This document shows, one piece after another, positions 42,228-42,880 of a DNA stretch of 64,000 nt; positions within the stretch are counted from its first letter, which is position 1, and the number at the start of each line of letters is the position of its first letter. Origin of the DNA: Enhydrobacter sp. (GTDB lineage Bacteria; Pseudomonadota; Alphaproteobacteria; Reyranellales; Reyranellaceae); assembly GCF_030246845.1 (NCBI RefSeq), contig NZ_CP126889.1:4955001-5019000 (forward strand), read 5' to 3'. The notes under the pieces are model-generated. The model ran no database searches. It was not told where the DNA came from and was given only the letters and a program-made list of their open reading frames with translations. The translations under genes and the position numbers were made by a program.

Positions 42228-42689
42228 TCAGGCCGCCAGCACGAGGCGGTCGGAGGCTCTGGCGAAACCGAAGCTTTCATAGAAGCGCTTGGCGTCCCGG
42301 TTGACGTCGCCCACGATCGCCTCGACCTGGACCGCGCGGCGCTGGCGGGACCATTCGACGGCGGCCGCCAGCAGGCGGCGGCCGATGCGGCGCCCGCGCT
42401 GGTCGGCGCGCACGACGAGATTGTCGACCTCGACGATCTTGTGGATGGCGCCGTCGGGCCGCGGCACGACTCGTGTGACCAGCACGGCCACGCCCAGCAC
42501 GCCCATCTCGCCTTGGGCAACCAAGAGTGTCGTTCCCGGGCTCGCCAGCCAGGTCATCACCTGCTCGCGGGCGTGCTCGGGATTGTCCAGTAGCGTGCAC
42601 AACGCATCGCCGTCGCGTGGGCCTGCGAGCCGCACGCGAATCGGGGGCGGCGGTGCGGCCCTCGTCTCTTCAGCTTCAACGATCGACAT
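42228..42689 (-). CDS. GNAT-family N-acetyltransferase under attenuator control
   Basis: This 153-residue GNAT protein has acetyl-CoA motif A as VDNLVVRADQRGRRIGRRLLAAAVEWSR and a late AKRFYESFGFARASDRLVL. ATG 42689 follows GACGGAGGATGAG. It is convergent with the GST gene. Upstream lies its own promoter, a leader peptide with Trp-Tyr-Phe codons and a terminator hairpin (42744-42880). Its expression is therefore probably tied to aromatic aminoacyl-tRNA supply. The acetylated substrate is unknown; an aromatic amino acid or its analogue is a testable guess. Confidence 0.88.
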   Translation of the reverse strand: MSIVEAEETRAAPPPPIRVRLAGPRDGDALCTLLDNPEHAREQVMTWLASPGTTLLVAQGEMGVLGVAVLVTRVVPRPDGAIHKIVEVDNLVVRADQRGRRIGRRLLAAAVEWSRQRRAVQVEAIVGDVNRDAKRFYESFGFARASDRLVLAA

Positions 42690-42743
42690 CTCATCCTCCG
42701 TCTGCGGTCCTGCCGCGGCCCGGAGGCCCTCTCCAGAAACACA

Positions 42744-42768
42744 GAAGCCGCCGGGAAGCGGCGGCTTC
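42744..42768 (-). terminator. Attenuator terminator hairpin in the GNAT leader
   Basis: A perfect 10-base stem, GAAGCCGCCG/CGGCGGCTTC around a GGAAG-type loop, is followed on the minus strand by TGTGTTTCT. Its upstream arm (GCCGCC) can instead pair with GGCGGC at about 42787-42793 in the preceding hairpin. The U-tract is interrupted, so termination may be partial. Confidence 0.7.
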
Positions 42769-42793
42769 GTCAGGACACAACCCTTCGCGCCGC

Positions 42794-42844
42794 CTATTTT
42801 GGCGACGTAAAGTACCAACCCTTCTGGAGCAGGTGCGTTGTCAT
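42794..42844 (-). CDS. 16-residue leader peptide of the GNAT attenuator
   Basis: The minus-strand ORF runs from ATG 42844 to TAG 42794-42796 and reads MTTHLLQKGWYFTSPK. The residues Trp10, Tyr11 and Phe12 are consecutive. The codons right after them (ACG TCG CC) form the left arm of a 7-base hairpin with GGCGGCG (one U-G pair, AAAATA loop). The ATG coincides with the predicted transcription start, so the mRNA would be leaderless, as known for trpL in Sinorhizobium. No Shine-Dalgarno sequence is present. Confidence 0.7.
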   Translation of the reverse strand: MTTHLLQKGWYFTSPK

Positions 42845-42850
42845 GACGAT

Positions 42851-42880
42851 TGTATAAGGCGGCGCGCCGCGGTCTGTCAA
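42851..42880 (-). promoter_or_regulatory. Sigma-70 promoter of the GNAT leader
   Basis: On the minus strand a perfect -35 TTGACA (42875-42880) and a -10 TATACA (42851-42856) are 18 bases apart. The start point predicted about 7 bases downstream falls at 42844, the first base of the leader ATG. The -35 begins immediately after the stop codon of the upstream DapA-like gene. Confidence 0.7.

Follow-up and report, generated by a model that had tools for sequence, protein, structure and literature searches.

Prediction of a trp-type attenuator with a Trp-Tyr-Phe leader ORF ahead of a GNAT acetyltransferase gene in Alphaproteobacteria

The window (the whole stretch of DNA that was analysed, 64,000 nucleotides) carries on its minus strand a gene for a GNAT acetyltransferase of 153 aa (42228 to 42689), preceded by a promoter, a very short ORF and several hairpins, which raises the question of what such a leader would sense and why it would stand before an acetyltransferase gene. 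The first-pass annotation had read the leader as a trp-type attenuator and had regarded a GNAT as an unusual target for one. The trp-type reading was borne out computationally, as orthologues kept both the codons and the pairing and similar leaders were found before aromatic-supply genes. The unusual target was agreed upon, and it was also found to recur in other families, including Sinorhizobium meliloti, beyond what had been claimed. The best explanation, which we regard as very probable, is a ribosome-dependent trp-type attenuator with a probable Shine-Dalgarno layer, the GNAT being an aromatic-starvation gene.

Every coordinate given in the first-pass annotation for the promoter, the 16-codon ORF, the hairpin, the terminator and the GNAT checked on the minus strand, to which all coordinates below refer. 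The -35 element TTGACA (42875 to 42880) and the -10 element TATACA (42851 to 42856) were separated by an 18-nt spacer, and the -10 element was located 6 nt 5' of the leader ATG. This promoter was absent from a simple promoter scan because TATACA does not end in the required T. The leader ORF (42794 to 42844), of leaderless type, was MTTHLLQKGWYFTSPK followed by TAG and read M T T H L L Q K G W Y F T S P K stop, with the sensor codons TGG TAC TTT (Trp10, Tyr11 and Phe12) at 42809 to 42817. The folding energy of the window's leader alone was modestly unusual (z -2.6; 3 of 200 shuffles were equally good), and the attenuator case therefore rests on comparison.

A total of 56 leaders were fully read. 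The ORF was 16 codons long in all of them, and the consecutive Trp, Tyr and Phe codons that had been noted in the window encoded the same residues in 56/56, while residues 2 to 9 varied. The Tyr11 codon varied synonymously (TAT in 42 leaders, TAC in 14), and the Trp and Phe codons were constant. The -35 element matched at 6/6 bases in 51 of the 56, and the best-scoring -10 element was 6 nt ahead of the start codon, also in 51/56. This constant spacing, with a variable sequence in between, favours a leaderless start of the kind that S. meliloti trpL has, and the position of the promoter thus argues for a predicted transcript start at the leader ATG, in agreement with the start point at ATG 42844 proposed earlier.

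Promoter, leader, terminator and Shine-Dalgarno hairpin were present in 30/30 same-genus GNAT orthologues inspected (the best GNAT match per genome in 30 genomes, including the window's own), so that the alignment of orthologous upstream regions suggested in the first-pass annotation showed the leader codons and the pairing to be kept. An alternative account would make the hairpins just the terminator of the upstream gene, with an ordinary promoter driving the GNAT, and it draws on the window's leader promoter starting directly at the stop of an upstream DapA-like ORF. The sequence 5' of the -35 element, however, differed between the same-genus loci while promoter and leader stayed constant, and the leader retained its reading frame and sensor codons, which makes this account highly improbable.

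The predicted attenuator was then composed of alternative pairings. Segment 1 (CGTCGCC, 42801 to 42807), identified by folding and pair counts, would be covered by a ribosome stalled at Tyr or Phe. Segment 2 (GGCGGCG, 42788 to 42794) can pair with segment 1 or segment 3 according to folds and pair counts, and hairpin 1-2 in the window joins 42807-42801 to 42794-42788 with a loop that adjoins the stop codon. Segment 3 (GAAGCCGCCG, 42759 to 42768) is the terminator 5' arm, with segment 4 or segment 2 as partner, and segment 4 (CGGCGGCTTC, 42744 to 42753) is the 3' arm; the former was supported by sequence, folds and pair counts, the latter by sequence and pair counts. Together they form an intrinsic terminator, GAAGCCGCCG-CTTCC-CGGCGGCTTC (42768 to 42744), with a 10-bp stem and then the T-rich tail TGTGTTTCTG (42734 to 42743). 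Across 46 distinct leaders, 97.6% of the terminator stem cells were paired. The inner pair 64-76 of the antiterminator occurred as GC, GU, UA and AU in the same 46, and the covariation score of the antiterminator inner hairpin was reached by 1/500 shuffles. Hairpin 1-2 received weak support in pair counts. Tests of cognate against swapped arms across families gave no covariation signal for 1-2 or 2-3, as these arms are near-constant across families, and there was little covariation within the genus because the leader sequence is too conserved. On visual inspection and in a few minimum folds, the AUG region at the 5' end had seemed able to pair with the linker that follows segment 2, but this pairing was rejected after the swap test (p 0.23 and 0.53).

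Folding with a stalled ribosome was simulated on a transcript that ended before segment 4, its RNA being blocked from the 5' end up to the edge of a ribosome on the W, Y or F codon. In the GNAT leaders folded in this way, segment 3 paired with segment 2 at 0.65-0.83 (the whole 6-7 bp stem) for a ribosome on one of these codons, and at near 0 to 0.23 for one on the stop codon (0.36 in L185). The GNAT leader L065 paired segment 3 upstream even without a ribosome, and in the leaders before tyrS (L041) and a class II DAHP synthase (L040) the stop state was about the same as the stalled state. The mutually exclusive terminator and antiterminator through segments 2 and 3, as first described for the window, were kept in orthologues, and ribosome position selected the pairing in silico. 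At equilibrium, folding of the full leader in the stalled state favoured the terminator over the antiterminator in most leaders, so the choice of segments must be made kinetically, which is also how classical attenuators work.

In the proposed mechanism, the transcript would begin at the leader AUG and the ribosome would initiate leaderless. With charged tRNA-Tyr (also tRNA-Phe and tRNA-Trp) plentiful, the ribosome would reach UAG and cover segment 2, the 3-4 terminator would form and the GNAT would stay untranscribed. With aromatic aminoacyl-tRNA scarce, stalling on UGG-UAY-UUU would cover segment 1, the 2-3 antiterminator would form and transcription would go on. As a computational prediction, a trp-type attenuator that responds to the supply of aromatic aminoacyl-tRNA is well supported. 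Comparison at the sequence level showed conservation of the leaderless-type ORF, the sensor codons, the predicted antiterminator and the 5-6 hairpin described below, and recurrence of the leader before aromatic-supply genes and related GNATs.

The distribution was examined with a model of the leader RNA (R1) and a broader model (R2). R1 matched 59 of the 65 genomes of the genus, and 42 of the 44 more complete ones of good quality. A scan of named genomes with the GNAT alignment gave 74 loci, 59 alphaproteobacterial and 15 from other groups, and many of the closest were labelled Reyranella (R. massiliensis 521, R. soli and R. aquatilis). By R2, the leader stood ahead of 57/59 alphaproteobacterial GNAT relatives, and both exceptions were cut by contig ends: the L108 sequence starts 65 bases ahead of its gene, and L135 comes second in a GNAT tandem whose first gene is cut by the end of the contig. 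No leader was found upstream of the 15 GNAT homologues outside Alphaproteobacteria (0/15). Flanking genes differed between GNAT loci and gave no functional hint. In many genomes a second, related GNAT followed the first within about 150 bases, and the two genes abut in L135. A decayed duplicate leader with a truncated GNAT was observed at L123:232-340, and the intact copy follows about 1.1 kb downstream; the duplicate reads Trp-His-Phe, the Tyr codon being lost, and its terminator arms are damaged and no longer match. A second close leader match likewise lies 1.1 kb away in G427:C325.

The GNAT leader was the sole strong match of the leader model in the window's own genome, where inspection by eye of the regions upstream of DAHP synthase, tyrS and trpS revealed no such leader. 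The same genome carries, outside the window (G000:C1:2050244-2050368), a leader-like ORF MISFAFLRSRRRRLSKRREGVRA with stop codon after TTGACA, followed by a terminator-like repeat and an argC-like gene, a possible Arg-codon attenuator.

Matches of R1 and R2 outside the genus were examined singly and were counted solely where leader and gene were supported; gene families were checked with Pfam for eight representatives, and the remainder were assigned by similarity to those. Leaders with aromatic codons were found before GNATs (L036, L038 and L065), standalone S4 proteins (L037, L039, L044 and L066-L072), tyrS (L041), prephenate dehydrogenase (L042, L076 and L214), class II DAHP synthase (L040 and L077-L079) and class I DAHP synthase (L047 and most of L175-L187). 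The layout was leaderless in most of them, and those of class II DAHP synthase were matched inside a longer frame. The S4 proteins are 87-97 aa long and weakly resemble the C-terminal domain of TyrRS, with scores under the Pfam cut-offs, and their leaders take two forms, with TAG after 16 codons or continuing to HTGGAQGFV-like ends. The class I DAHP synthase loci among L175-L187, as well as L216, showed the leader type MITVATSYFWYFSYDSSLAAGGSRSI with stop codon and belong to two families of large-genome relatives. Further GNATs were found by R2 in two more families (L171-L174 and L185-L186) behind leaders such as MIKNAHITSTYFWLYL, MITNAPIAHTYFWLFR and MTDRIRIAAPYFTAPH, each ending in a stop codon. 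These GNATs are 33-37% identical between the two families, and L171-L174 are about 26-31% identical to the window GNAT; by sequence they appear to be its relatives, with orthology unproven. A search of a plasmid collection with one of these GNATs matched Sinorhizobium and Shinella replicons, and the three loci examined there had the leader MIKNAPISSVYFWLFR or MIKSTHIAATYFWLFR, each with its stop codon, and a promoter ending at the ATG. The leader of the S. meliloti GNAT copy was MIKNAPISSVYFWLFR followed by a stop codon.

Some candidates were discarded. When the scan was widened to the phylum, four R2 matches with E around 1e-4 (L213, L215, L217 and L218) were chance matches to gene ends followed by terminators, and L177 and L184 also look like chance. 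A leader with two aromatic codons was sought at 25 general GNAT homologues in the class, and none was found. One GNAT relative (L188, family f24) has a possible leader, MINALKIARY and stop, after TTGACG, which the two-aromatic rule missed; Tyr is its sole aromatic codon and stands directly before the stop.

Tyr was the aromatic residue found in nearly every leader across families, and the peptides otherwise differed (GWYFT, RWYFS, TYFWLYL, VYFWLFR and APYFTAPH), having mainly a Tyr-centred aromatic codon in common. The GC-rich arms shared by distant leaders are partly a product of selection, as the same models found those leaders. The occurrence of similar leaders before aromatic-supply genes fits sensing of aromatic aminoacyl-tRNA. 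It counts, together with the differing peptides, against a leader that senses a ribosome-targeting drug or acts through a nascent peptide (stalling like that of erm, cat or TnaC) with the GNAT as an induced resistance enzyme, since the genes concerned include DAHP synthase, tyrS and prephenate dehydrogenase. Resistance genes under leader control do exist, the leader peptide is conserved within the genus, and the window GNAT is weakly similar to models of aminoglycoside and streptothricin acetyltransferases, but those scores are far below the curated NCBIfam cut-offs. The synonymous variation of the Tyr codon also speaks against a drug or peptide sensor, though a peptide sensor would permit that too, and we consider this explanation unlikely. 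Much the same low probability is given to a main product that is the terminated leader RNA or the peptide acting in trans, possibly alongside attenuation. The strong conservation of the leader in the genus and the precedent of rnTrpL and peTrpL in S. meliloti (PMC7298713) would suit it, whereas the leader stays beside a GNAT or aromatic-supply genes and the peptide is variable in its N-terminal half.

Downstream of the terminator, a 5-6 hairpin hides the GNAT Shine-Dalgarno sequence. Segment 5 (GCCTCCGGG, 42719 to 42727), the anti-Shine-Dalgarno strand by fold and swap tests, has segment 6 or segment 4 as possible partner; segment 6 (CGGAGG, 42695 to 42700) holds the Shine-Dalgarno sequence according to sequence and pair counts, and an inner helper hairpin GCGG/CCGC (42704 to 42716) within the 5-6 stem was invariant in the 46 distinct leaders. 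The terminator loop and segment 4 together offer segment 5 another complementary stretch, mostly with a single mismatch, and in the window the stretch able to pair with segment 5 by duplex and swap tests is CCCGGCGGC (42747 to 42755). Through this pairing of segment 4 with the anti-Shine-Dalgarno strand, antitermination could also free translation. In this probable second layer, segment 3 would be taken by segment 2, the freed segment 4 would pair with segment 5, and segment 6 would be released kinetically, helping translation.

The 4-5 complementarity was first noticed by eye and was tested afterwards. Cognate 4-5 duplexes were stronger than swapped ones among 16 representatives (p 5e-5); among 11 less related representatives, p was 1.6e-4 for 4-5 and the same for 5-6, with 0.3-0.6 for two control pairings. 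In later-found held-out leaders, the cognate arrangement ranked 4/720 for 4-5 and 1/720 for 5-6; there are close relatives among these six leaders, and in a set of four from the six 4-5 ranked 1/24. Individual 4-5 duplexes were often no better than shuffles. Forcing segment 4 free opened the Shine-Dalgarno sequence clearly only in some leaders (L006, L036 and L041, and partly L028), and the window's own leader gave the opposite result, with the Shine-Dalgarno sequence open at 0.81 with segment 4 occupied and at 0.01 with it free. The swap tests thus support 4-5 pairing, and the folding energies show no clear preference for it.

These results bear on a purely transcriptional attenuator, in which the 4-5 complementarity would be a by-product of a GC-rich terminator that resembles a Shine-Dalgarno sequence (GGCGG being similar to GGAGG). 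Consistent with it, equilibrium folds often retained 5-6 even with segment 4 free, 4-5 did not covary within the genus, and a shuffled region 5 paired almost equally well with segment 4 in several leaders. Against it stand the cognate-versus-swapped result in the less related representatives and the held-out rank for 4-5, as well as terminator-loop bases outside the stem that also match segment 5: CCAG/CTGG in the tyrS leader, GGTC/GACC in S4 leaders and CATCAGG/CCTGATG in Sinorhizobium. We regard the purely transcriptional form as a serious possibility at clearly less than an even chance, and a second layer coupling antitermination to Shine-Dalgarno access as somewhat better than even. The full proposal is a six-segment chained attenuator that is spread across Alphaproteobacteria and absent from Rfam. 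In it, a single stalled ribosome would set both termination and Shine-Dalgarno access (1-2/3-4/5-6 against 2-3/4-5/6 free), and the GNAT would be a recurrent aromatic-starvation effector that might, for example, inactivate a mimic of an aromatic amino acid or an inhibitor of a tRNA synthetase. Taken as a whole, it is judged to fall slightly short of even.

The window GNAT matched Pfam PF00583 (E 3.9e-12), and its AlphaFold model showed a confident GNAT fold (pLDDT 88.5). Foldseek matched generic GNAT structures with no pointer to a substrate. The L171 GNAT, from another family with a similar leader, matched thialysine and diamine acetyltransferases in the PDB. The window GNAT has the fold and the acetyl-CoA domain in common with RimI-like and SSAT/thialysine acetyltransferase-like members of PF00583, but it reached no curated NCBIfam cut-off. 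It is probably made just when Trp, Tyr or Phe run short. Amino-acid attenuators normally control the pathway making the sensed amino acid, and the recurrent GNAT target would therefore place the enzyme in aromatic amino-acid homeostasis. The first-pass annotation had suggested that it could acetylate an aromatic amino acid or analogue. For a GNAT made when aromatic aminoacyl-tRNA is short, removal of a charging competitor (an aromatic analogue or a synthetase inhibitor) or tuning of the pathway by acetylation would make sense. A putative role in removing an aromatic mimic or tRNA-synthetase inhibitor is the favoured guess among roles, and a tentative one.

The new elements are the GNAT as a recurrent attenuator target and a probable Shine-Dalgarno layer. 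Some of the leaders before DAHP synthase or tyrS may already be listed in a 2004 comparative survey of proteobacterial attenuators. Neither the window leader nor 14 related loci had an Rfam match at gathering score, and for the window nothing relevant was returned even at E 10. Searches of the open-access literature turned up neither an aromatic attenuator preceding a GNAT nor the chained layout; acetyltransferases are mentioned neither in a genome-wide study of premature terminators (PMC2965389) nor in a study of alphaproteobacterial RNA motifs (PMC1273637). The leader context offers a handle on GNAT function, and the S. meliloti copy makes the GNAT attenuator testable in a model organism.

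Among known systems, the E. coli trp, phe and his attenuators choose 2-3 or 3-4 pairing through coupled translation of sensor codons, as proposed here. Their leaders are Shine-Dalgarno-led and control biosynthetic operons, whereas the GNAT leader is of predicted leaderless type with a GNAT as target. The B. subtilis trp leader combines transcription attenuation and Shine-Dalgarno sequestration in one leader with the protein TRAP as sensor; in the GNAT leader, the ribosome would set both layers by chained pairing and, if this is true, it shows how control of transcription and of translation can be coupled by one stalled ribosome, with no protein as sensor. The S. meliloti trpL/trpE(G) attenuator has in common with the GNAT leader consecutive aromatic codons and a mutually exclusive antiterminator and terminator, and its leaderless ORF at the transcript 5' end is the arrangement predicted for the GNAT leader (PMC7298713). 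The leaderless trpL of Sinorhizobium invoked in the first-pass annotation was confirmed there, rnTrpL beginning at the trpL ATG, and both rnTrpL and peTrpL were reported to act in trans (PMC7298713). The S. meliloti trpL reads Trp codons and controls trpE(G), whereas the GNAT leader has Trp-Tyr-Phe codons and a GNAT as target, with possible coupling to the Shine-Dalgarno sequence.
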